From: Diplonema papillatum
Taxonomy: Eukaryota; Euglenozoa; Diplonemea; Diplonemida; Diplonemidae
Direction: 5' to 3'
Assembly: GCA_030068145.1 (NCBI GenBank)
Contig: JAPJBO010000003.1
Coordinates: 746,501-810,500 of the forward strand
DNA length: 64,000 nt
Shown in pieces: positions 1-60,622 of this stretch (position 1 is its first letter; the number at the start of each line of letters is the position of its first letter). The position numbers were made by a program, and so were the translations under genes. The notes beneath the pieces were generated by a model. It was not told where the DNA came from. It saw nothing but the letters and a program-made list of their open reading frames with translations, and did no database searches.

Positions 1-3000
1 ACCTTCGAGGCCGGGTTCCCGACGCATAAGGCGATTCGAGCTGTCTTCCACCTCACCGCTTTCCAGCAACTTAACGCGGTGTTCCGCTTCCCCCGCGCCA
101 TCCCTGGATCCGGTCTGACTGACCGAACCGACACCGCAGCCCTCAAAGCTGTAGTCGCGAAATACCGACTCGCCGACCCGTGCCCCCGCGGACTAGAAGG
201 CAGCCAGAGGGTGGATTTTCTCTGGCTGCGTATCTCGCGGGCGGCGGAGGATTATCTGCTCCAGAAGTCCAAGATTGAGGGTAACCTGGCGGCCTACCGC
301 GGGCGAGGAGAGCGGCGGAGGCTGAGCACCCAGCGCGTGTCCGCGAGGCCGTCCCCGGAAGGTGCGGGGGCCGACACCGCACCTCTGAAGAGAGCCAGGT
401 GTCTTCTCGGGCGCATGCGGGAGTACTCGGCCGCACGAGCCAAATGGGAAGATATGTCCAGCGCCCCGTGCCCGTTGTCGCTCCTGCTCAAAGGGCAGTG
501 GGACAAAATACGGTCGTTTCAAAGCTTCATCCTCCAGCGTACGGACGGGAAATGTGCTTTGCCACTGGTACCGCCATCGGCGAAGGCCGCGCGGGGCCTA
601 TCACACACTATCTCGGACGTGTGCCAGAGCCTGGCCCAGACTACGTTAAATTCGAGGTACCTGGAAATCGCAAGGTGTCAGCGCGAGCTCCGTAACCCTC
701 TGGGTAAAGAGTCGTTTGCTTGGGTGAAGAAGGAGGCGCCGCCGACATTCTATTTTACGAACGGTCGCGACGGGCGACTCACGGCGAACTTGGTGGAAGT
801 TGATGCGACGGTAAGGAGGAAGTGGGACCCCGTGCTACGCATGTATGCCGGGAAGAAGGAACCCGAGTTCGCCCCCTTCCTGCGAGAATATGGTGACTTT
901 ATTGCGCAACACCCGTGCCAACTGGGCCCGATCACGGCCGACCGCCTACGGTCGGTAGCGAGGAAGAAAGGTGTGCAATCGTCATGCGGCGTGGACGGCT
1001 GGCGCATGCGAGAAGTTGCGGCCCTGCCGGACACAATCCTAGAAGGGTTTGCTGCAGTACTGAACGAAGTCGAGGAGACGGGCCTATGGCCCGACGGGGT
1101 TCTTGACGCGCTAGTCACCCTGATTCCCAAGGGAGAGGGAGATGACCCCCTGAAGCTGCGGCCCATCACCGTCTCCAGCGTCGTTTATCGTCTTTGGGCT
1201 AGTGTGCGTCTGCAGGAGGTTCTTGTCTGGCAAGAGCAGTGGATACACGAGTCCCAACATGGCTTCCGGAAAGGCCACTCCTGCGACGACGTCATCATGG
1301 ACATCGCGCTGTCGATAGAGGAATCCCTTATCAACGGAACGCCGCTACATGGGATCGCGCTCGACTTTGCGAAATGTTTTGACCGCGTTCCGCAAGGTTT
1401 GGTACTCGACCTAGTTGAGGCTCTGGGGCTGCATGAGCGTGTGCTGGCGCCTCTGCGCCACGTCTATAAGTACCTCAGACGTCGTTTCAGGTACCCTCTG
1501 GGAGTGGGCGATGAATTCAAGGTCACGAACGGCATCCTCCAAGGCTGCCCTATCTCCGTGGTCCTGATCAACGCCCTTCTGTCCGTGCTCTCGAAAGCCC
1601 TGGTCAGCCGGGCACGAGTGAGTCCGAAGTCCTTTGCTGATGACTTGTACCTTCTCTCGCGACTCGCGAAGCTGCTCCAGGAAGGAATAGATGTCACCGC
1701 GATATTTGGGAATCTGACCGGCCTCGCTCTCAACGAAGGCAAGTGTGCCGCCTTCTCGACGTCGAAAAAAGGCCCCCGTCTCGAGGTTGGAGGCAAGGCG
1801 ATGAAATCGGTGAAGACCGTTAAGGTTCTGGGCGTTCCCCTGGGCACAGAAGGGCCTGTGGACAACGGTAGGTCTGACGCGACCGTGGAAGCCGCAGCCA
1901 GGCTAGAAGCGTCGCCACTGAAGCCGCGCACCAAGTTCCGCGTCATGCAGACGATCGCGGCATCCGCCCACTACGGCGCGGCCTACTGCGCCAACTCGGC
2001 CGGGGGCTTTGCGAACAACTCCGTTCTTCGCACGGCTCTCTCCGCCTGCTTGATTCCTCGCTCAAATCGGGCGAAGAGCCCCCTCGCGACACTTACCCTC
2101 GTTGCGAAGGCGCACTTGTGCGATCCGGCATGCGCCTCCGGGTACAGCTCACTCCGCACCGCCGCGAAGCAATACCAGAAGGAGAGATTTCGGCTGCGAA
2201 TGGATGCCCTCCTTGTATCCGGGGCTGACGCCTCCTTAAAGGGCCCCGTCGGGCTGATATCCAATCTCCTTCGGGAGATACGTTTCCTGCCGGCGAAGCG
2301 GCACAGTTTCGAGCTGCTATCGTTCGAAGGTGCGACCGTGCCCTTCTCCGGGAAGGAGGCACTGCACTTCGTCCGTGAGGGCCTGCGTCTTCGAGCGTGG
2401 CGCTACCTGACGACACAAAGGCAAGGCTATTCGGGTATCGAGAGGGGGGTGGATGTGCGCCTGTTGAACAGACTGTGGCAGAACCGCGCGACGGGGGACA
2501 GGCTCAGCTTTGCAATCCGCAAATGCATCGCAGGAGCGGTGTACTCTCGCGAGTGGTGCAACAGAAGATGGGGAACGGGTGACGGCGTATGCGAGTTCTG
2601 CGACGGTGGGACTCCGGGGACCCTGCTACACTATTTCTGGGAATGCCCGGGACCAGGGGGCAGGTGGGTCAATCTACACTGCCGACTCGACGTCGCAGGA
2701 GTGGCGGCACAGAATATGCCCCTATGCCTGAGCACACGGGGGATTCCCCCCATCGGAACCCCGCCGGTACTCGTGGAGAGGGTCCAGAAGCTGATCGGGA
2801 CCATCTCCATCGAGATGGCGCAAGCGCAGCACAATATCGCGACGACGCGCCCCTGGGAGCTTGCCTCCGCCGCGGCAGGGAGATATGACGTTGAGCTGGC
2901 AAGGGACAGCCGTGAGCTCCTCACGAAGCAGATTGGGACGCGCTTCGCGGCGTCGCTAGTCTACTGGCTAAGGAATCTACGTTGGGTCAACACCCCCCCT

Positions 3001-3570
3001 CTCCCCACGACCGGCGTGGAACTCGCTTTGGATTTTGAGGCCTACACGCGATCCAAGCTGCCTGGGGAAACGTTTGCCGAAAAAGGGTTGCAGATAGGAT
3101 ATCTAGCACGAGCCATCAACGACCTAAGCTTTGCTGACACGGGGGCCTCAGCCTTCCCCGGGAAGTGGAGACAGGGTGTATGCTCTTTACGCTGCCTGGG
3201 TGCGCCGGCAATGCCGGGATTCTCACACCGTCCACGTTTTGCAGCTGGACGGAGGACAGAGCTGATGTTAAACGGCATAGAAGCAGTATGCTCCAAAGAC
3301 AGGTGGAACGACGCCAAACCCGTGTACCCTCAGGACGTAGCTTTCGCTAATTGGAAGCTGAAGTTTCCCATCAAGGTGTTTGCCGCCGCCGTAGGCCGCG
3401 CAGTCGCGAGGAAGAAGAGGGCCCGCAGCGCTACAAGGCGGCGATCCCCCGCGAGACGAGCTCACCCGCCGGCCAGAGCGCCCGCTGCAGCACCAACTCC
3501 GGTGCTACCACTCACTGTAGCAGAGCCGCGACCTGCGGCGCGCCTCCGGAGCGACTTACGCCCGCCGTAG
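1..3570 (+). CDS. LINE-A reverse transcriptase polyprotein, 5' end outside window
   Basis: The frame is open from base 1 to the TAG at 3568-3570, so about 1189 residues are visible and the N terminus lies to the left. The first residues (FPTHK, bases 16-30) resemble the end of an APE-type endonuclease with its catalytic His. The reverse transcriptase follows: a fingers block (ITVSSVVYRLWA), motif A LDFAKCFD with Asp at 1363, motif B GILQGCPIS near 1531, and motif C FADD at 1633-1644. A knuckle C-x2-C-x9-H-x4-C starts at 2590, and the block ELALDFE lies near 3018-3040. The C terminus is Arg/Pro/Ala-rich. No RNase H is visible. The RT is uninterrupted, so the copy may be recent. It differs from LINE-B, C and D in lacking the C-terminal CC/HH module. 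The RT assignment is firm; the endonuclease remnant is inferred. Confidence 0.93.
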   Translation, partial: TFEAGFPTHKAIRAVFHLTAFQQLNAVFRFPRAIPGSGLTDRTDTAALKAVVAKYRLADPCPRGLEGSQRVDFLWLRISRAAEDYLLQKSKIEGNLAAYRGRGERRRLSTQRVSARPSPEGAGADTAPLKRARCLLGRMREYSAARAKWEDMSSAPCPLSLLLKGQWDKIRSFQSFILQRTDGKCALPLVPPSAKAARGLSHTISDVCQSLAQTTLNSRYLEIARCQRELRNPLGKESFAWVKKEAPPTFYFTNGRDGRLTANLVEVDATVRRKWDPVLRMYAGKKEPEFAPFLREYGDFIAQHPCQLGPITADRLRSVARKKGVQSSCGVDGWRMREVAALPDTILEGFAAVLNEVEETGLWPDGVLDALVTLIPKGEGDDPLKLRPITVSSVVYRLWASVRLQEVLVWQEQWIHESQHGFRKGHSCDDVIMDIALSIEESLINGTPLHGIALDFAKCFDRVPQGLVLDLVEALGLHERVLAPLRHVYKYLRRRFRYPLGVGDEFKVTNGILQGCPISVVLINALLSVLSKALVSRARVSPKSFADDLYLLSRLAKLLQEGIDVTAIFGNLTGLALNEGKCAAFSTSKKGPRLEVGGKAMKSVKTVKVLGVPLGTEGPVDNGRSDATVEAAARLEASPLKPRTKFRVMQTIAASAHYGAAYCANSAGGFANNSVLRTALSACLIPRSNRAKSPLATLTLVAKAHLCDPACASGYSSLRTAAKQYQKERFRLRMDALLVSGADASLKGPVGLISNLLREIRFLPAKRHSFELLSFEGATVPFSGKEALHFVREGLRLRAWRYLTTQRQGYSGIERGVDVRLLNRLWQNRATGDRLSFAIRKCIAGAVYSREWCNRRWGTGDGVCEFCDGGTPGTLLHYFWECPGPGGRWVNLHCRLDVAGVAAQNMPLCLSTRGIPPIGTPPVLVERVQKLIGTISIEMAQAQHNIATTRPWELASAAAGRYDVELARDSRELLTKQIGTRFAASLVYWLRNLRWVNTPPLPTTGVELALDFEAYTRSKLPGETFAEKGLQIGYLARAINDLSFADTGASAFPGKWRQGVCSLRCLGAPAMPGFSHRPRFAAGRRTELMLNGIEAVCSKDRWNDAKPVYPQDVAFANWKLKFPIKVFAAAVGRAVARKKRARSATRRRSPARRAHPPARAPAAAPTPVLPLTVAEPRPAARLRSDLRPP

Positions 3571-9229: not shown

Positions 9230-10430
9230 GACTGACGCATTTCACACATTTTCGTGGGATGCGGTGAACCATCAACGCTGGTACACCTGCAATCGACGGC
9301 CAAGTATAACCGTAAGGTCAAAGCCAAGTATTGCCTGCGAGATGCAGCGAGTCAGCATCATCAGGACAGTGTGCATACGGACGACAAGCCGACGTCCAGG
9401 GTGTGCGTCCTGTGAAGATCCTACACCTTTTCAACGATACTGTGCCAAGTGTGGTTCAGACAACAAGCCGACGTCCACGGTGCTGTTCAGATGAATCGGC
9501 ACCTTTTGCGAAAGGCAGTGAGCCATCATCGATAAGACACCTGCTGCTAGGAGAAACAACTCGCCACCTGACTGGTTTCAAGTGGTTTGCGCGCGCTCGT
9601 GCCGCAGCTCCTCTGTGCACAAATGGGGGGTACTTGAGCCGGTCCATCCCCTCGTTATAGACCGTGATAGACCGAAGAATATAGCAGCTGCATCGAATTC
9701 GATGCAGCTCTAGGGACTAGGGATGGACCTGATAGACCGTGGTGGACCGTGATTCACTGTGATTAACAGCGGCATGCACTTCGATGCAGTTTCAAGAGAT
9801 AGGGACGGACCGGCTCAGTACTGCAATCATGCAGACACGCCGGCGTCCCCGGTGCACGCTGCTGTTTAAGATGAACCGATAGCTTTTGACGGATGCAAGG
9901 AGCCAGCATCGATAGGACACCTGCAGTCGACAACATTGCCAAGTCTGCCTACAGACAATGTCCGGCACCTTTTGCGGGATGCAGTGAGCCAGCATCGATA
10001 GGACACCTGCAGTCGACAACATTGCCAAGTCTGCCTACAGACAATGTCAAGATGAACCGGCACCTTTTGCGGGATGCAGTGAGCCAGCATCGACAGGACA
10101 CCTGCAGTTGACAGCATTGCCAAGTGTGCCTTCAGACAACAAGTCAACGTCCACGGCGCGCGTGCTGTTGAGAGATGTCAAGATGAACCAGCACCTCTTA
10201 CGGGATGCAGTAAACTATCATCAATCAAGGACACCTGCTGTCGACCGTAAAGCCAAGTGTGCCTGCAGACAATCCGCAGTGTAAGTGCTGTTAAGATGAA
10301 CCGGCACCTTTTGCGGGATGCATTGAGTTACTATCAATAAGACACCTGCACTCGACGATGCCTAGCATGCTTGCCTACAACAAGCCGATGCCCACTGCGC
10401 GCGTGCTGTTACAATGGGCGGCACCTTTTG
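9230..10430 (+). repeat. Degenerate minisatellite, about 90-120 bp units
   Basis: At least seven imperfect units carry GATGAACCGGCACCTTTTGC, then GGGATGCAGTGAGCCAGCAT, ACACCTGCAGTCGACA and GCCAAGTNTGCCTACAGACAA. The best units lie between 9870 and 10150. A TG element (9635-9817) is inserted in the array, so the array is older than that insertion. ORFs inside it are by-products. Confidence 0.8.
9635..9817. mobile_element. TG element (short TIR transposon), copy 1
   Basis: It begins TGAGCCGGTCCATCCC and ends GGGACGGACCGGCTCA, inverted repeats with one mismatch. It is flanked by the perfect 5-bp direct repeat GTACT (9630-9634 and 9818-9822). The interior carries GTGATAGACCGTGGTGGACC motifs like the decamer arrays of the 51745-59309 element. 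It is the reverse complement in layout of the 23725-23904 copy. Confidence 0.9.
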
Positions 10431-23724: not shown

Positions 23725-23904
23725 TGAGCCGGTCCGTCCCTATCTCTTGAAGCTGCGTCGAAGTGCCTGCCGCTGTGTATCACAGTGAATCACGGTCCAC
23801 CACGGTCTATCAGGTCCATCCCTAGTCCCTAGTGCTGCATCGAAATGCCCGGTGCTGTATTCTTCGGTCTATCACGGTCTATCAAGAGGGGATGGACCGG
23901 CTCA
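23725..23904. mobile_element. TG element, copy 2
   Basis: TGAGCCGGTCCGTCCC at the left and GGGATGGACCGGCTCA at the right. The flanks CACCC (23720-23724) and CACTC (23905-23909) are a 5-bp duplication with one change. The interior is the reverse complement of the 9635-9817 copy. Confidence 0.88.
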
Positions 23905-51728: not shown

Positions 51729-51784
51729 CCCCGGGCCTTGAAAGTGAGCCGGTCCACCCCTCCCCCATCGAAGTGCATTCTTCT

Positions 51785-51947
51785 GTCTATCACAGTCTAC
51801 CACAGTCTACCACAGTCTATCACAGTCTATCACAGTCTATCACAGTCTATCACAGTCTATCACAGTCTATCACAGTCTATCACAGTCGCAGTCTATCACA
51901 GTCTATCACAGTCTATCACAGTCAATCACAGTCTATCACAGTCTATC
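51785..51947 (+). repeat. Left subterminal decamer array
   Basis: About 16 near-perfect copies of AGTCTATCAC with a few AGTCTACCAC and one AGTCAATCAC. The array is interrupted on its right by LINE-C; one further unit (54475-54484) lies on the other side of that insertion. Confidence 0.95.
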
Positions 51948-54472
51948 GTCGTCTTGTTGCGTTAGTGGGGAGTCATTTGCATGCAAATGAGTACCACACT
52001 ATGCCAGCTTTTCGCTACGTGACTCCAGAAGGGTCACTTTTTCCGCGCTTTCGGCGCGGCGCAACTCTAGTCGGTTGCAACTGTTCTTGGAAATTACTGA
52101 CGATTTCATGATCCGAAAAGGAATCGGAATCTTCGCTTTCTCGTTTGCGCCGACAGGCACGCCGCGATGCGGAGGACGCGAGTAGCCGGGAAGAGCCGGC
52201 GGGAGGGCGCGATCGTTGTGTGACCCGTGGAGGGTCGGAACCAGAATCAGTAAAAGGGCCCGAGTCAGGGCCTGCCATCGAAGAGGGCCGGGCGGGGCCG
52301 GGTGGGCGCGGTGTGTTCGGGCCGGCGAGGCCAGTGCCGTCGTCGCCGAGATCGGCGCGTCGTCGTCGTGCGCGCAGCGCGGCTGCGGGAGAGGTCGTGG
52401 GGGTGCAAGGCGCGGGTCGCTTCCTGCCTGCTGGCGGGGGGGCGCGCTTCGGGGGCGATTTCGTCGTCCGCCTTCTCCGGCCACGGCTGGTAGGTGTCCC
52501 CGGTGGGGACGGCGCGCGCCGCTTCCGGCCTGTGAGGCCGTCGCTCTCGCCGCGACCGCCACCGCCGCCGCCGCCGCGACCGCCACCGCGTGCGCCGCCG
52601 CGTGCGCGGCCGCGACCAGTGCCGCGGCCGCCGCCTCCGTCTCCGCCACTGTTGTCTCCGCCGCCCCGGCCGCCGCGGCCGCGGCCACGGCCGCGGCCGC
52701 CATGACCACCGCCACCCCCGTCGCCACTGCTGCTGTCGCGGCCAGCACCACCCCTGTGATGCCCCCGTCCGCAGCACGCGTCGGCGTTCGGGCAGGTCCC
52801 GCATCGCGTCAGCCGATGCGCCCGGCAGCATTGAATGCGCAGGCCGTCGTCCGGGCGGTGGTGCACCTGGCAGCACTGGTCAACTACAAGGCTGTAGTTT
52901 CTTCGCATGCCAGTGCACACCGCGCACTTCTGCTTTGCGCAGGCATCGCAGACCGACTGCGTGCGGAGCAGAGGGTCCGCCTGCGCAGCCGGTACAAGCA
53001 CGGGAAGGCGCGGGCGTTGCGGCAGAGGGGTGGGCACGTCCCAGCGCAGCGAACGCTGTGCCCGCCGCGCCGCGTCGTACTGCGGGAACACGTCCCCGCC
53101 CCAGTTCTTCCCGTCCCCGGCAGCTGCCCGCGGAAAGCTCGCCTCCAGCACCCCGTGCGTCTCCTCGCCCCCGGCGAAGCGTGGGCGAGGTGTCAATCCC
53201 CCCCACAGCATCGGCGCCCCCAGGGTCCTCATCGAGCCCACCCGGACCTTCCGCTCGGCAGGCAACGGCGACGGCAGCTGCAGGTCTCGGCACAGGCGGC
53301 ACAATGTCGACAGCATCGTCCAGAGGGTCTTCCCCCTCTGGTTGGCGGCGAGCCTTCGTATTCCCGGGGGGGCAGGGACGTCGACCCCGGTGTGGACCTC
53401 GAAGTCCACTGCCAGCTCGACGCACGACACCTCGCCCGCGTCGGTCCACCTCAGTGCCGACAGCCAGCCCTTGAGCGCCCGCATCGCACGGCCGCCGTAC
53501 GGCCATCTCGGCGGCTCATCCGGAAGGCGGTCGAAGTTGAACAGGTGTTGCACCGCCGGCAGCGGCGCAGCTGCGTGCCAGGGGTGCATCGGTTGCACCG
53601 CGGAGAGGCGGCGTCGCTCCGCCTCCACGCGTGCAGTGTACACCGCCGCCATGAGGCGGTGAAGGGCCGCGACCTCCACCCGCATTCCTTCGACAATTAC
53701 CCCATGCACACGCGTGCAAGACGGCCACCTCGCCCGGTCCGCCCGCAGGAGTTCGGCGAAGCAAGGACGGCCGCGGATCTCGTCGTAGGCGGGGCACTCC
53801 CACCACAGGTGATCCGCTGTGTCCTGGACGCCTCGGTCGCAGTCCCTGCAGCCGCGGTCCAGCGGCGGACGCTGAGGTTCCGAAGAGGAGGATTCGGAGG
53901 CGTGCTCGTCAAAGCTGCCTGTCGTATCAGAGGCGGTCGACGACACGGACGCCGAGGAGCTCGGCGACCCGTCCGACCCGGCCGCCCCTCCGTTCGCACG
54001 CGCATTCCGTCCCCACCGCGCTGCGAGAAACACACCCCCGGACAGGATCACCGCCAGTGCACGTTTCTCGCCAGCGTCAGCCGTCGCCAGGCGCAGCTCG
54101 TTCGTACGCCTGCAGTCCACCCCTGCCTGCACACCGTTGTAAGACGGTCGTTGCCTCGCAAGCTGCGTCCAGGTAGTCTGCCGTAACCGCGCCCGGATGG
54201 CGTGGTGCCTCTCGCCCCTCTCCATGTCGAGAAGCCGGCGGCCCTCGAGCGCCGCGGTCGCAAAATCGCGACCTTCGTAACCGATGCCCGCGACCGTGAA
54301 ACCGTCAGAGATGGCGATCCCGACAGGACCTAGGCGCGCCTCCGGCAACAACACACCGTGCCGGCTGTAAAGCCGGGCGATGTTCAGCATGCGGGCATAC
54401 ACGCGGGGGAGCCTCTCGCACGCGTCGAAAAACGAGCATAGAATCCTGTACGGCCGAGCAATCATCGGATCA
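51948..54472 (-). mobile_element. LINE-C, 5'-truncated, inserted in the decamer array
   Basis: Its 3' end (minus strand: CCACTAACGCAACAAGACGA) abuts the decamer array at 51947, and its truncated 5' end abuts AGTCTATCAC at 54475. Only the post-RT coding part and 3' UTR are present. The shared CACTAACGCAACAA terminus also occurs at 28780 and 23100. Confidence 0.85.
52015..54465 (-). CDS. LINE-C polyprotein, C-terminal half only
   Basis: 816 codons on the minus strand starting right after the truncation. The apparent Met is internal, because the sequence aligns from VDPMIARPYRILC with TDPGTCLAYRV of LINE-D. It has the stretch ERLPRVYARMLNIARLY and the knuckle C-x2-C-x9-H-x4-C (RDCDRGVQDTADHLWWEC). 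ELAVDFE follows, then two Cys/His modules (the first with Cys in place of the first His, the second CRAHRLTRCGTC ... CCGRGHH). The tail is Arg/Gly-rich, ending in a Pro/Arg/Ser-rich region. RT and endonuclease are absent, so it cannot transpose by itself. Long plus-strand frames here are shadows. Confidence 0.9.
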   Translation of the reverse strand: MIARPYRILCSFFDACERLPRVYARMLNIARLYSRHGVLLPEARLGPVGIAISDGFTVAGIGYEGRDFATAALEGRRLLDMERGERHHAIRARLRQTTWTQLARQRPSYNGVQAGVDCRRTNELRLATADAGEKRALAVILSGGVFLAARWGRNARANGGAAGSDGSPSSSASVSSTASDTTGSFDEHASESSSSEPQRPPLDRGCRDCDRGVQDTADHLWWECPAYDEIRGRPCFAELLRADRARWPSCTRVHGVIVEGMRVEVAALHRLMAAVYTARVEAERRRLSAVQPMHPWHAAAPLPAVQHLFNFDRLPDEPPRWPYGGRAMRALKGWLSALRWTDAGEVSCVELAVDFEVHTGVDVPAPPGIRRLAANQRGKTLWTMLSTLCRLCRDLQLPSPLPAERKVRVGSMRTLGAPMLWGGLTPRPRFAGGEETHGVLEASFPRAAAGDGKNWGGDVFPQYDAARRAQRSLRWDVPTPLPQRPRLPVLVPAAQADPLLRTQSVCDACAKQKCAVCTGMRRNYSLVVDQCCQVHHRPDDGLRIQCCRAHRLTRCGTCPNADACCGRGHHRGGAGRDSSSGDGGGGGHGGRGRGRGRGGRGGGDNSGGDGGGGRGTGRGRARGGARGGGRGGGGGGGRGESDGLTGRKRRAPSPPGTPTSRGRRRRTTKSPPKRAPPPAGRKRPAPCTPTTSPAAALRARRRRADLGDDGTGLAGPNTPRPPGPARPSSMAGPDSGPFTDSGSDPPRVTQRSRPPAGSSRLLASSASRRACRRKRESEDSDSFSDHEIVSNFQEQLQPTRVAPRRKRGKSDPSGVT

Positions 54473-54742
54473 ACAGTCTATCACAGGGCTTGTGGACTGG
54501 GGCGGCCAAGCGCGCCTGAACGCGACGATCAAGGCGAGCTGAAAAAGCGAACGCACGATAGTTCACGTTCGAAGAGGTAACCGTTGCGTCGGCGATGCAG
54601 ATTCTCGCCTTCGATTCTCTGTTTTTTAGCTCAAACTAATTCAGCCCACCACATGAGCTTACGATCACCCGGGTTCGGTTTGTGTATTGGAAGCTCTGCC
54701 CCTTCGTAGGGTTTCTCCTCCACGCATAATAAAATAATCCAA

Positions 54743-57001
54743 ATGTCGGGAAGCACTGGTTCAGGTGCAGAAGAGGAGGTTTCCACTTCACTACGTGAGC
54801 TCGTCCTTGCGTTCGTCGTAGCTCGGGTTCCGCTGTCAAGGATCCCGACCCTCATCAAGGAAACCACGCACATCATCTTGCGCCCGTTTCCAAATCTGGA
54901 CTTGAGGAATGACGTAAGTCGACGCGCCGTACGACGTGCTCTTGGACTGAGCATGATCTTGCAGGACATGGAGTTTCTGCTGCGTCTCAATACTGGAGAC
55001 ATCTGTCTGTCTGGGGACGCGGGCGACTTGCCTGGCCGCAACAAGGACGTGCTCACGCTATCCTTTACTTACTTCGACTCAGTCGAAGCAGTATGGAGGA
55101 GGCATGCCGCCTTAGCTGCGCTTGTCATCGTGAAGACGAACGACGCGGTGGTACGCCATATCGAGCGCACCTCGAAGTACTTCACGGAGCTAAATGATAA
55201 GTTGCTTGAACTTGGCTTCCAAGTCTGCGACGAGGCTTTTATGCCACGATTGAAGAAGGTAGTGACCGACCGAGCGATGTTCGGTGTGTGCACCGACCTC
55301 TACAGTGCACAGTTCGTTGATGAGGTCATCATGGAGCCTGTCCACAGACAGCATCTCGCCGACAGCAGCATGCTAGACCAGCTGTCCTCCGACCAGCTCC
55401 CGCTGAAAGTGCTGATTCCGCTGGCATACCAGTTTATAGCTGGCAATGATCCCTTCGCGCACTGGTTTACCCAAACCACCGGACTTTCGCCGGCTGGCAT
55501 GTTCTGGGTTCCCGTGAAGTCCGGCCGCTTTTGTTCGTTGACAGCCGGTGCGAACAGCCAAGATCGTGGCCGGTTGGTTGCAACTGTATTTGGAACAGCG
55601 CGATAATGTGCTCTACTCGAGTGCTCCCGGTGCGAAGACTAAAGTGCCGAACAAGTGGCACAAGCTATTCATCGCCCTTGGCAACCCCAGCTTCTGCGAC
55701 AAGCTCCGCATGCTGCGCAGGGTGTTCACAGCATTGACCTATCCTCTCAGCCAGCTTCTCTGGCAATTATCTGAGCTGGGGTCGGTCAAGGAGGCTTGGA
55801 TCGGAATCATCGCGTGTCTATGTCACAACCTGACCAACCCGCCTCTCCGTGCTCTTGCCTTCGAAGGGAGAAAAGATTTGTTCGGCTGCAGCGTGCCCGA
55901 TAACCTGAAGCTGGTTGAAGGCAGTTCCCCGCCCACAACACTCAAGTTTGGGCATCTTGCCGCCGATGGTAACAAGCTTGGTCGAGATCGCGAATGCGGG
56001 CCGACCTCGTATGCCGATCAACTGAAGGCCGCCGTCAAGTCCCTCTCCAGCAACCCGTTGCCGAACGAGCTCGAACTGGAAGATCCAGGGACGGAGGAGG
56101 GAGTGCGTTTCGACGAGGTAATCGTAAAGCACATCCGCTCGTTCAAGTGCTTGGAGGTGGAAAAGTACGTCAACGCAGTCAGCGACGCCCACGCCCCTCC
56201 AGGCTGCAATGCCAACATGACCGAGAAACCTGTCGGCATTGCCAAAGCAGTGATCGAGGATTGTCGTGGCGTCGGGGTAACTGACGATGTACTCCGCGCA
56301 GTTGCCATGTTCCGTTCAGGGAACCTTCCAGCAGTGTCATCCGAACTGCTCGGAAATGAGAAAGTCCTTGCCTATTGCAAGGAAACTTACCTGAACTGGG
56401 AGACCACTGTCTCAAGGTCGCATCGGCTCGCTGACGAGTACGAAGAGAACACGCTTCGTAAGCAGGCAGCAGGAGAAGCACTCGTCAAGAAACGAAACAA
56501 AAAAGTGCTCGCAGAGAACGAAGCTCGTGCTGCCATCAAAGAGCTGTCCCCATCCAATATCGTCGACAACAACTCACGAGCATGTCTCGAGGACCAATGC
56601 CGGAAGCGGGGCCTCGGTAGAACGGGGAAGATGAGAGAGCTTCTCGAAAGCATTATTGCATTCGACAAAGCGGATTTCGCGATACCTGCTGACTATCCCC
56701 GCAGGGGTAAAGCAGCCCAGGCGTGTGCCGAACCCTCGGAGCCAAATCAACAACAGAAGCCTTCTGTCCGATCGACGAAGAAGAGAAAGAAACAGGTCGA
56801 GGCGTCCTCATCTTCATCTTCAACGTCTTCAACGTCTTCATCTTGAACATCGTCTTCATCGTCACCTCCCAGACTGCAAACGAAAAACAAGAAGCGAGCT
56901 CTCCTGCCGCCTCATTGCCTGTCAAAACCGCGAAGGGAAAACTGAGCTCCTCTTTCTCTACTTTGCCATCGAAGCGACAAAAATCTAGCAAGGATGTCTA
57001 G
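54743..57001 (+). CDS. TG transposon protein 1, SAP domain, candidate transposase (exons 54743-55507, 55545-56795, 56873-57001)
   Basis: ATG 54743 follows AATCCAA. The first frame would end at 55606, but a 37-base GT-AG segment (55508-55544, T-rich before ACAG) restores the frame. A second, 77-base intron (56796-56872) extends the C terminus to TAG 57001. The join is 714 residues. The N-terminal region is helical (LRELVLAFVVARVPLSRIPT). The middle has well-spaced acidic residues (GDICLSGDAGDLPG; GVCTDLYSAQFVDEVIMEPV) but no catalytic triad I can assign. A SAP-type DNA-binding motif lies near residue 600-630 (ACLEDQCRKRGLGRTGKMRE), followed by basic stretches resembling nuclear localisation signals. 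Its position inside a TIR element suggests a transposase or an accessory DNA-binding protein. Without the mini-intron reading it would be two ORFs with a frameshift. Confidence 0.62.
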
Positions 57002-57253
57002 ATGAGAGTTAATCATGGGTCTTGCTACTAAATCCTTGTCCACATCACATCCTTTAGCCATTTCTTTTGACCGCAGCTTACCCTTCTGATTCCGTTTGTT
57101 TGCATTCTGGGCTTTGACCTGGCCTGTGGGCAGTTGTGAGACAACTTCATACTCCCTGTCTGTTAGACTCTTGAGGTGTGCGTCGTATTCGGCCAGGCCG
57201 CTTCCGACCACTTTCGCAATCGATAGCTGCCCATCACAATGACAGGTTTCCAT
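56912..57253 (-). CDS. Possible minus-strand ORF in the TG transposon
   Basis: METCHCDGQLSIAKVVGSGL opens at 57253 and stays coding-like (SLTDREYEVVSQLPTGQVKA) to about 57000. Beyond that it overlaps the last exon of the plus-strand SAP gene, so only one can be fully right there. It may be an exon of a minus-strand gene that begins near 59126. Confidence 0.3.
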   Translation of the reverse strand: METCHCDGQLSIAKVVGSGLAEYDAHLKSLTDREYEVVSQLPTGQVKAQNANKRNQKGKLRSKEMAKGCDVDKDLVARPMINSHLDILARFLSLRWQSRERGAQFSLRGFDRQ

Positions 57254-57282
57254 CCCGAACTACCAGCACCCGTCTTTCTACC

Positions 57283-58177
57283 AATGTCTTTTGCGGCGTT
57301 TTCCTTCACAGTGTGCGTCTGCTGGGGAGAGAGGGCGCGCGCCCTATGGAAAGCTCAGAAGAAAGAAGAAGGAGCCAATCGGTTCCATTTTGTCCTGCAA
57401 GCAGACGGGCTGGGTGCCATAAAGGCAGCGGCGCTACAGAAAGCAGAAGCGGAGGTGCGCGAGCGCCTGGGTACCCCGCGAAAGTTGCCGCTGTCGAAGC
57501 TTGTAAACCTCCAGTACAAGGTGGCGAAGGAGACGGAAGTCGACGGCGACGACGATCGCCTACGAAGCATCACCACGCCTCAAGACATTGAGGCCATGCG
57601 TGGGCTGGGGTGCAAACTGATTGTTTGCACAGTGGATGCACCGGAGCCACCGAAGGTCAAGACCGGTGACATGGCGGCTACCCTGAAGGCGAGGCTGGCC
57701 ACGATAGGCTGCGAAGAGGCGTTTACGACGTCGCGGGTCGCCGAGAAAGCGGTGGTAAAGTGTGCTGGGTGCTCCAGTACAGTTTTTACGCTGCTGCCGA
57801 CGGACCGCCAGCGTTTTCGTCTGGCGCCGTACGAAAAGCACGTCGTCGAGTGCACGGACGCCCAACAACACGTCAAGGAAGACGTGCTCAACGGCATGCG
57901 GGAGAAACGAGTCAGGCACCTGCGCAAGGCTCAAAAAAACATGCAGGAAACGCGCTCCGATGCGAAGGCCCAGGAGGTGAGTACGCAGGGACAGAGAACG
58001 ATCGCTGAACTGTGGGAGCCGATGCGGGCTATCGCTTCCACAGTTCAGTTTGCAACTCCCGATGCTGTGGGAGCCGATGCGGCCTCTGATTCTTCAAGTA
58101 CTGTCCCCGCCCCTGTTCCTGCGACCCCTGAGCCCTCGCTTCCGCCCGCGAAGAAAACGAAGTACTCTTTGCTGTGA
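57283..58177 (+). CDS. TG transposon protein 2, zinc-finger-like
   Basis: The start is uncertain: ATG 57283 (MSFAAFSF) is used because an earlier Met would overlap the opposite-strand ORF, and an acceptor at 57312 is also possible. The product is about 297 residues. The central motif KCAGCSS followed about 26 residues later by HVVEC (C-x2-C, then H-x3-C) is a BED-like or other single zinc finger. Around it are charged helices, then TIAELWEPMRAIAS, then a Ser/Pro/Ala-rich tail ending KKTKYSLL. It is likely a DNA-binding partner of protein 1, perhaps recognising the decamers; that is inference. Confidence 0.6.
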
Positions 58178-58179
58178 TG

Positions 58180-59126
58180 TTCTTGATCCGTCTCTCGGTT
58201 TGCCATCTGGGTCCGCCTCCCACCGTACCTTTTTCCGATACCAAACCGATGCTCCATTCTTCCTCCTGATTTCATGCACAGAGTTTGTGTCCACGACCAC
58301 ACGATAGGGGAGTTCCGATTCACTGTCGGGTAGGATATCTACCGGTCCGGATCTTTTCTTTCGTTCAGGAGTTGTCGAATCAGCGACTTCTCCCAGCTCT
58401 GCGTTGCCACGCACTGCACGTTGCTGCAAAGTATGTTCTCGCATCTGCCACGTGATGTATACGCAGTTCTTTCCGGCTTTCGGACAGAGATCTTCACGTG
58501 CTACTTCCAGCCGTCTCTGCACCCTGTCCGCTGCGTTGACTTCTGTTCTCTGGCTTCTCCTCTTAACCTGGTCACGATGACGCATGATGCGTAGTATGGC
58601 TGGTCATATGTAAATTGGCCTAAAACCACTGACGAAAACATGTCACTCGGTCGGCGCGTCCGAAGAGACATCATGCAGCCGAGATTCCCTGCATTCTCCG
58701 AGAATATGTGGGCCAAGCACAGGACAGCAAACGTCTGCGGTATAGACAATTATCAGGGCTGCGATCTTCCGGAATTGGGCAGCTAGCTTCCTCTGGCATT
58801 GCACTCGTTCGTGAGTTCTTCTTGATCTAGGGTCGCCGTAGGTCTCTCCCATGGGTTGCCTTGCCCCATTTCGCACCAGCCTCTTCACAAGAAACAACCG
58901 GTGAACAACAGACAGGATATTCACAAATGAAGGGGGAGAACACCGATGAGTACCGTGAGTCATCTACTGCCAAAAAACTTATGGTGTGCCGGACAGACTC
59001 GTTCGCTGGCCGGAACTTGCAGTCAACGTGAAGCCTGGCCAACACAAACTCTCTCGTCGCTTCGGGTGAGACCTCTTCCTGCACCAGTCTCATGGCTGCG
59101 CACAAAACAAACAACAATACCCACAA
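58180..59126 (-). other. Minus-strand coding potential in the TG transposon
   Basis: Successive minus-strand frames look coding-like: 59126-58960 (VQEEVSPEATREFVLARLHV), 58963-58740 (FVNILSVVHRLFLVKRLVRN; KLAAQFRKIAALIIVY), 58749-58600 (QTFAVLCLAHIFSENAGNLG) and 58450-58250 (ELPYRVVVDTNSVHEIRRKN). They probably form a spliced or frameshifted gene convergent with protein 2. Exon limits could not be fixed and no family was recognised. Confidence 0.4.
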
Positions 59127-59161
59127 ATATAGTACATTATGTCATCGAATATCACCCAGTG

Positions 59162-59282
59162 GTCTATCACAGTCTATCACAGTCTACCACAGTCTATCAC
59201 AGTCTATCACAGTCTATCACAGTCTATCACAGTCTATCACAGTCTATCACAGTCTATCACAGTCTATCACAGTCTATTACAG
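59162..59282 (+). repeat. Right subterminal decamer array
   Basis: About 12 copies of AGTCTATCAC, the last two degenerate. It has the same orientation as the left array, so the arrays are direct although the element ends are inverted. Confidence 0.95.
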
Positions 59283-59314
59283 GCCATCAGGATGGGGTGG
59301 ACCGGCTCAGAAAG

Positions 59315-60622
59315 ATCCCCGTAGCGAGTCTTCACTCTAAGATCCGTAGCGAGTCTTCACTCTAAGATCCCCGTAGCGAGTCTTCACTCTAAGATCCGTA
59401 TTGAGTCTTCACTCTAAGATCCATATTGAGTCTTCACTCTAAGATCCCCGTTGCGAGTCTTCACTCTAACATCCCCGTAGCGAGTCTTCACTCTAAGATC
59501 CGTAGCGAGTCTTCACTCTAAGATCCGTATTGAGTCTTCACTCTAAGATCCCCGTTGCGAGTCTTCACTCTAACATCCCCGTAGCGAGTCTTCACTCTAA
59601 GATCCGTAGCGAGTCTTCACTCTAAGATCCGTATTGAGTCTTCACTCTAAGATCCCCGTTGCGAGTCTTCACTCTAACATCCCCGTAGCGAGTCTTCACT
59701 CTAAGATCCGTAGCGAGTCTTCACTCTAACATCCCCGTAGCGAGTCTTCACTCTAAGATCCGTATTGAGTCTTCACTCTAAGATCCCCGTAGCGAGTCTT
59801 CACTCTAACATCCCCGTAGCGAGTCTTCACTCTAACATCCCCGTAGCGAGTCTTCACTCTAACATCCCCGTAGCGAGTCTTCACTCTAAGATCCGTAGCG
59901 AGTCTTCACTCTAAGATCCCCGTAGCGAGTCTTCACTCTAAGATCCGTAGCGAGTCTTCACTCTAACATCCCCGTAGCGAGTCTTCACTCTAAGATCCCT
60001 GTAGCGAGTCTTCACTCTAAGATCCGTAGCGAGTCTTCACTCTAAGATCCGTAGCGAGTCTTCACTCTAACATCCCCGTAGCGAGTCTTCACTCTAAGAT
60101 CCGTAGCGAGTCTTCACTCTAAGATCCGTAGCGAGTCTTCACTCTAACATCCCCGTAGCGAGTCTTCACTCTAAGATCCGTAGCGAGTCTTCACTCTAAC
60201 ATCCCCGTAGCGAGTCTTCACTCTAAGATCCCCGTAGCGAGTCTTCACTCTAAGATCCGTAGCGAGTCTTCACTCTAACATCCCCGTAGCGAGTCTTCAC
60301 TCTAAGATCCGTAGCGAGTCTTCACTCTAACATCCCCGTAGCGAGTCTTCACTCTAAGATCCCCGTAGCGAGTCTTCACTCTAAGATCCGTAGCGAGTCT
60401 TCACTCTAACATCCCCGTAGCGAGTCTTCACTCTAAGATCCGTAGCGAGTCTTCACTCTAACATCCCCGTAGCGAGTCTTCACTCTAAGATCCCCGTAGC
60501 GAGTCTTCACTCTAAGATCCGTAGCGAGTCTTCACTCTAACATCCCCGTAGCGAGTCTTCACTCTAAGATCCCCGTAGCGAGTCTTCACTCTAAGATCCG
60601 TAGCGAGTCTTCACTCTAAGAT
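59315..60622 (+). repeat. 25/27-bp satellite array, about 50 units
   Basis: All units share GCGAGTCTTCACTCTAA. They begin GATCCCCGTA (27 bases), CATCCCCGTA (27) or GATCCGTA (25), with GTATTGAG variants near the left end. The three types alternate in recurring order, giving a higher-order period of about 77-79 bases in places. No spacers, so not a CRISPR. It abuts the TG transposon's GAAAG duplication. Confidence 0.97.

Follow-up and report, generated by a model that had tools for sequence, protein, structure and literature searches.

The 64,000-nucleotide stretch of Diplonema papillatum DNA analysed here (the window, which lies on contig C3 of the 271 Mb of genome searched) contains a long interval that is bounded by perfect 16-bp terminal inverted repeats (TIRs), is flanked on either side by GAAAG, carries an array of 10-bp repeats inside each end and encloses two open reading frames (ORFs), ORF1 and ORF2. 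The original prediction, made from the letters alone, had seen in this interval and in two short copies with the same termini an apparently undescribed DNA transposon family, and its TIRs, duplications, short copies with their flanks, decamer arrays and zinc-finger-like gene (ORF2, with a CxxC...HxxxC pattern) were all recovered at the positions given in Table 1. The short copies are one and the same 180-bp element in opposite orientations and share their termini with the long copy. The decamer arrays are direct, i.e., one strand holds 29 of the 30 matches found in the element with up to two mismatches. As a check on chance, the window was found to have 20 TGAGCC and 17 GGCTCA sites, which form three pairs, 60-9000 bp apart, with equal 5-mer flanks; two of these are the window's elements, and the third (9519/10960) encloses unrelated sequence and looks like a chance pairing.

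A copy elsewhere, L040 on contig C318, shows the element uninterrupted: it is 5108 bp long, lacks a 2.5-kb insertion present in the window, is 99% identical to the window copy, and holds an ORF1 of 707 codons without a stop and an ORF2 of 312 codons. The window's ORF1 is the L040 frame minus 20 bp. Splicing, which had been proposed for this gene, was rejected, since the two frames in the window are one ORF interrupted by the 20-bp deletion. The SAP domain ascribed to the same gene fared no better, as the match on the window's second ORF piece falls short of the cut-off (12.4 against 23.9 bits) and is not listed at all when the whole ORF1 of either family described below is scanned against Pfam-A up to an E-value of 10; the NCBIfam Ku70 model scores 14.1 bits on this region, far below its own cut-off. 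The ends proposed for the interval stand, but it is not a single element, about 2.5 kb within it being a separate nested repeat with a long minus-strand ORF at 52015-54465. This ORF was considered as transposon cargo and rejected, as it belongs to an independent repeat that is missing from L040; elsewhere in the genome the repeat has at least 46 matches, from a scan in which 40 of 1227 candidates were scored. With a broken ORF1 and another repeat nested in its left array, the window copy is dead.

Table 1. Features of the element and related places (window positions unless a contig is named)
Feature	Position	Strand	Remark
Transposon copy, family 1	51745-59309		Diplonema papillatum
Left target duplication	51740-51744		GAAAG
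Left TIR	51745-51760	+	TGAGCCGGTCCACCCC
Left array of 10-bp repeats	51785-51947	+	GTCTATCACA
Nested multicopy repeat	51949-54468	-	ends approximate; outside transposon proper; absent from L040
ORF1, presumed transposase	54743-56846	+	frame broken at ~55558/55559
D92 codon (GDAGDLPG)	55016-55018	+	proposed first catalytic residue
D176 codon (VVTDR)	55268-55270	+	proposed second catalytic residue
E198-P-V-H201	55334-55345	+	place of [C/D](2)H motif, E for C/D
E357 codon (SVKEAW)	55791-55793	+	proposed third catalytic residue
Weak SAP-like stretch of ORF1	56586-56654	+	12.4 bits, cut-off 23.9
ORF2, 312 codons	57239-58177	+	CxxC...HxxxC kept across both families
Right array of 10-bp repeats	59162-59282	+	orientation as in left array
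Right TIR	59294-59309	-
Right target duplication	59310-59314		GAAAG
Short non-autonomous copy	9635-9817	+	duplication GTACT/GTACT
Short non-autonomous copy	23725-23904	-	flanks CACCC/CACTC (one mismatch)
Family-2-bounded places	C4:642591-647618, C7:680470-685491, C5:376699-382243, C6:378516-384408		no listed ORF1 match

The terminus is abundant in the genome: a 14-bp pattern with one mismatch allowed gives 1507 + 1496 matches, against 112 + 89 for the same pattern reversed. We tabulated 62 copies with both ends, comprising the three in the window, 40 short copies (39 of the 40 best matches, the window's own excluded, and one further terminus pair) and 19 longer or other copies (the 14 both-ended members of 20 long regions, plus L033, L036, L001, L004 and L008). 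L050, L051, L054, L055, L057 and L058 were left out with one or both ends missing, and the remaining loci excluded either repeat places already counted or the window element, or lack one end. Of the 62 copies, 39 have an exact duplication of at least 5 bp directly abutting the element (5 bp in 30, 6 bp in six, and 7, 8 and 10 bp in one each), and 5 bp was reached in 0.26% of 3782 pairs of mispaired flanks. The other 23 divide into six with a one-mismatch 5-mer, 11 that need filler and six with no readable duplication. In the 11, a duplicated 5- to 7-mer appears only once 1-6 filler bases next to the terminus are permitted, and given the many offsets tried, chance may account for a few of them. 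One copy of the first six (L093) has both an abutting one-mismatch 5-mer and a 5-mer with 3 filler bases. For the copy L047, which sits in a minisatellite, the minisatellite units show the extra AC beside the terminus to be non-target sequence. A terminus search and a table of flanking 5-mers had been proposed as checks on the prediction, and they bear it out in the excess of termini and in the 30 duplications of exactly 5 bp; this length is the usual one without being constant, given the longer duplications and the filler.

An empty site could be identified for one insertion, L056. Its joined flanks were matched across the joint at 41 places, and a 23-base junction with a single ACTAT occurs 153 + 166 times with up to three mismatches, against none for the control; the 100 of these that are listed are exact. 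The joined-flank matches exceed the query by 5 bases, and with the junction intact this difference should lie elsewhere. The search was made with 13 non-window insertions and its scored list was filled by L056; the result holds for this insertion only. With 39 exact duplications and 319 single-copy matches to an empty site, the claim of a mobile family with these termini stands, and inverted repeats at both ends, a short target duplication and an empty site are what is found in class II TIR transposons.

Thirty 180-bp copies have a mean identity of 99.3% to their majority sequence, a value that leans high as the copies were chosen as best matches and that points to recent amplification. Amplification has also reached copies that cannot make an intact ORF1 product. 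One 1-bp deletion in ORF1 is common to nine of the 14 longer copies (L039 and L041-L048), while the base is present in L040 and L049, and the probe sequence around the deletion was not found in L052, L053 and L056. The ORF2 region is missing from L039, L041 and L042, and L045 and L048 have no ORF of its size. The nine copies sit at different sites, six with an exact 5- or 6-bp duplication and three with a 5-bp duplication plus filler, and the shared deletion at different duplicated sites thus indicates that the broken copies moved in trans.

A second family, represented by L099 on contig C2, begins with TGAGCCAATTCACC, ends of which number 1147 + 1115 in the genome against 17 + 9 for the control. 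Close to either end this family has 10-bp repeats of its own, and it carries both genes in the order seen in family 1, so that the claim that the element has genes of its own extends to a family with different termini. Its ORF1 is 46% identical to that of L040, and its ORF2, 29% identical to that of family 1, keeps the CxxC...HxxxC zinc-binding residues. Between the families, codon positions 1, 2 and 3 agree at 0.56, 0.65 and 0.34 in ORF1 and at 0.42, 0.49 and 0.34 in ORF2, a pattern that indicates coding constraint on both. A genome search with the annotated fragment of family-2 ORF1 gave at least 93 matches (92 of 654 candidates scored); residues 1-450 of the fragment are covered at 100% identity by 41 of the 93 listed, not counting the fragment's own locus. 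The open frame around the match has 727 or 736 codons in 38 of the 41, with room for the 724-codon ORF1, and is shorter in the other three. Among the 28 pairs that could be formed from 83 terminus places listed with their letters, five TIR-bounded places of 4,207-4,249 bp hold the family-2 ORF1. A looser terminus pattern, TGAGCCNNNYCACCCC, gives 505 + 480 matches against 12 + 6 for its control, and on contigs C1-C15, 35 of 58 listed places are in neither exact family list; some of the 35 are one-mismatch members of families 1 and 2, and further families beyond the two are likely.

These copies bear on the possibility that ORF1 and ORF2 have an accessory or passenger role, with the transposase supplied by some other element that has the same ends. 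The amplification of ORF1-dead copies would agree with this, as would places of 5,022, 5,028, 5,545 and 5,893 bp that are bounded by family-2 termini and have no listed ORF1 match. However, the 4.2-kb elements retain both genes, ORF1 is under coding constraint and conserved between families of different termini, and neither gene matches a known transposase; we consider a passenger role quite unlikely.

Searches for relatives of ORF1 in 5.8 billion proteins returned only hypothetical proteins of Diplonema papillatum, and a profile search of the same proteins only a Diplonema protein. No transposase family was matched by ORF1 or ORF2 of either family among 24736 Pfam-A models up to an E-value of 10, and no match in NCBIfam or among PDB sequences names ORF1 a transposase. 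Searches with two short peptide patterns only gave 25 matches in viral contigs and 39 in prokaryote genomes, none of which was confirmed as a relative. The earlier view that no known superfamily fits is therefore upheld, as none of these collections supplied a named family. ORF1 could still belong to a known DDE/D superfamily (e.g., Transib, hAT, P, MULE or CMC) from which it has diverged too strongly for sequence searches to reach it: the order of its acidic residues and a possible insertion, set out below, would fit, Transib makes 5-bp duplications, and the ORF1 alignment is shallow, with two diverged sequences. We regard this as unlikely in view of the searches just described, even with Pfam-A taken up to an E-value of 10, and of termini unlike those of Transib.

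Four acidic residues of ORF1 are identical across both families: the D in GDAG(E/D)LPG, the D in KKVVTDR, the E in EPVH and the E in KEAW (D92, D176, E198 and E357 in L040 numbering, spaced by 84, 22 and 159 residues). In DDE/D transposases, the first D lies on strand 1, the second on or just after strand 4, and a [C/D](2)H motif after strand 5, often followed by an insertion and then by the E (PMC8230255; this and the papers below are cited for the passages drawn on). Judging from the order D, D, E(2)H, E, it is quite probable that ORF1 has a DDE/D core. A transposase of another catalytic fold might account for the lack of sequence relatives outside Diplonema and of a confident fold, and for duplications of 5-10 bp and filler bases in 11 of the 62 copies. 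Such a fold nevertheless seems very unlikely to us, since DDE/D enzymes typically go with TIRs and with duplications that are short and largely of one length, and the order of the conserved residues is compatible with such an enzyme.

The protein search made with ORF2 gave no relatives outside Diplonema. In its zinc-binding pattern, taken together with the arrays near the element's ends, there is a likeness to En/Spm and its two proteins, and by this analogy we would guess that ORF2 acts as a DNA-binding partner.

On balance, we consider it reasonably likely that the window holds a dead, repeat-interrupted copy of a cut-and-paste DNA transposon whose transposase is ORF1 and whose lineage is distinct at the superfamily level. 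This lineage, with two families seen and probably more, would be characterized by TGAGCC... termini, direct subterminal 10-bp arrays and two genes. The putative transposase would have a DDE/D RNase H-like core with D92, D176 and E357 and a helical insertion ahead of the last acidic residue, would cut at the terminal repeats, sometimes carrying along a few flanking bases, and would join the cut ends to the target at positions staggered by 5 bp. ORF2 would be a zinc-finger accessory that binds DNA, perhaps at the decamer arrays, and copies with a broken ORF1, like the 180-bp copies, would be mobilised in trans. About evenly balanced, to our mind, is the case for a superfamily known so far from one diplonemid alone, with a transposase unrelated in sequence to any known one, a zinc-finger partner reading the decamer arrays, imprecise cuts giving duplications of 5-10 bp and possibly a non-DDE enzyme.

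Several observations weigh against the cut-and-paste reading with ORF1 as a DDE/D transposase. No duplication could be read in six of the 62 copies (L036, L078, L081, L084, L090 and L098), all duplication readings come from family 1 and none from family 2, and the three copies in the window gave no empty site, none of 67 matches spanning the joint when 40 of 3917 candidates were scored. For some of the places of 5.0-5.9 kb between family-2 TIRs, the matches listed include none to ORF1. As many as 36 D or E residues are identical between the families, so that a D-D-E order is easily found and by itself proves little, and the [C/D](2)H position has an E. Structure prediction, which had been suggested as a way to find an RNase H-like core, gave a divided answer: the conserved-residue order is compatible with such a core, but two models of ORF1 are of low confidence (predicted local distance difference test scores, pLDDT, of 36 and 43) and yield no confident fold. 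Each model shows part of the DDE/D strand order with the remainder discordant, and neither shows the whole; the first makes a helix of the VVTD segment, and the second makes one of the stretch for strands 2 and 3. A Foldseek search of the PDB with the first model gave 10 matches, none meaningful (best E-value 3.5).

Some further observations concern the surroundings of the elements. The region L058 (C22:161500-168500) contains several tandem ORF1-like pieces, 80-83% identical in the genome search and 85-90% in a local comparison, and no TGAGCC termini within it. In the window, tandem repeats of 52- and 131-bp units (59312-60493) start directly at the right end of the element, and its left flank belongs to a further abundant repeat which, in the matches listed, ends 12-20 bp short of the insertion. 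Three elements of both families have an insert inside a decamer array, namely the window copy (Table 1), L056 (element positions ~2110-3440) and L099 (from ~5225). The ORFs of these inserts end in a common cysteine/histidine-rich region, which is 38% identical over 245 aa between the window and L056 and was recognised in translation in L099; a Pfam scan of the array-insert ORF gave no match. The insert, which may be akin to a long interspersed nuclear element (LINE), looks like a repeat with a preference for decamer arrays as its target.

The lineage appears to be new, probably at the superfamily level, class II inverted-repeat elements themselves being well known. No description of the family was found in the portions of open-access literature searched, a scope outside which Repbase lies, and a literature search with the terminal 11-mer TGAGCCGGTCC and gene tags matched no transposon paper. 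Repbase groups non-autonomous elements by their terminal 11 bp, with one mismatch, and by duplication length (PMC4455052). The Diplonema genome paper, in which repeats make up 52% of the assembly, defers the rigorous identification of transposable elements (PMC10161547), and the family would explain part of these repeats. DNA transposons are reported to be absent from trypanosomatids, and transposon diversity to be low in Diplonema (PMC12278014); an abundant and recently amplified orphan-transposase family in the free-living sister group of trypanosomatids would extend the catalogue of eukaryotic transposases, and could be a genetic tool in a transformable protist. For the noncanonical introns found in other diplonemids, whose ends are inverted and G-/C-rich, a 2025 paper suggests an origin in transposons resembling miniature inverted-repeat transposable elements (MITEs), the introns of Diplonema papillatum being mostly canonical (PMC12621601). 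The present family may bear on that idea, though any relation between the termini is conjectural.

Among known systems, the DNA transposons of Euglenozoa are mobile elements from the same protist group as the Diplonema element. Merlin has been reported in Bodo and Perkinsela (PMC12278014), and TATE-, MULE- and Helitron-like ORFs in Diplonema (PMC10161547), with TATE classed among DNA transposons in the latter paper and among retrotransposons in the former. No Pfam-A family of the Merlin, TATE, MULE or Helitron kind was matched by ORF1, and the Pfam transposase models for hAT, P, MULE, CMC, Merlin and others are unmatched by ORF1 and ORF2 of both families. Merlin and MULE also have duplication lengths other than 5 bp. 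Transib, grouped here with RAG1, resembles the Diplonema element in its 5-bp target duplications but has CACWATG-type termini, whereas the Diplonema families start with TGAGCCGGTCC... and TGAGCCAATTC..., and no RAG1-core-like match for ORF1 was found in Pfam-A up to an E-value of 10 or among PDB sequences. En/Spm (CMC) elements have subterminal repeats and a transposase with a DNA-binding partner, and are thus alike in the short repeats at both ends and in the two proteins; they have CACTA-type termini and duplications of 2-4 bp, in contrast to the 5-bp duplications and other termini of the Diplonema element, whose ORF1 is without a sequence match. P, hAT and MULE elements make duplications of 8 bp or so, a length seen in one of the 39 exact duplications of family 1, as against 5 bp in 30. 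ORF1, whose DDE/D fold is putative, further differs from P element/THAP9 transposases, with their 8-bp duplications, in having no sequence match and an E for C/D. Nevertheless, the residue order of P element/THAP9, i.e., D, D, [C/D](2)H, an insertion and E (PMC8230255), is paralleled in ORF1 by D92, D176, E198-P-V-H201 and E357.

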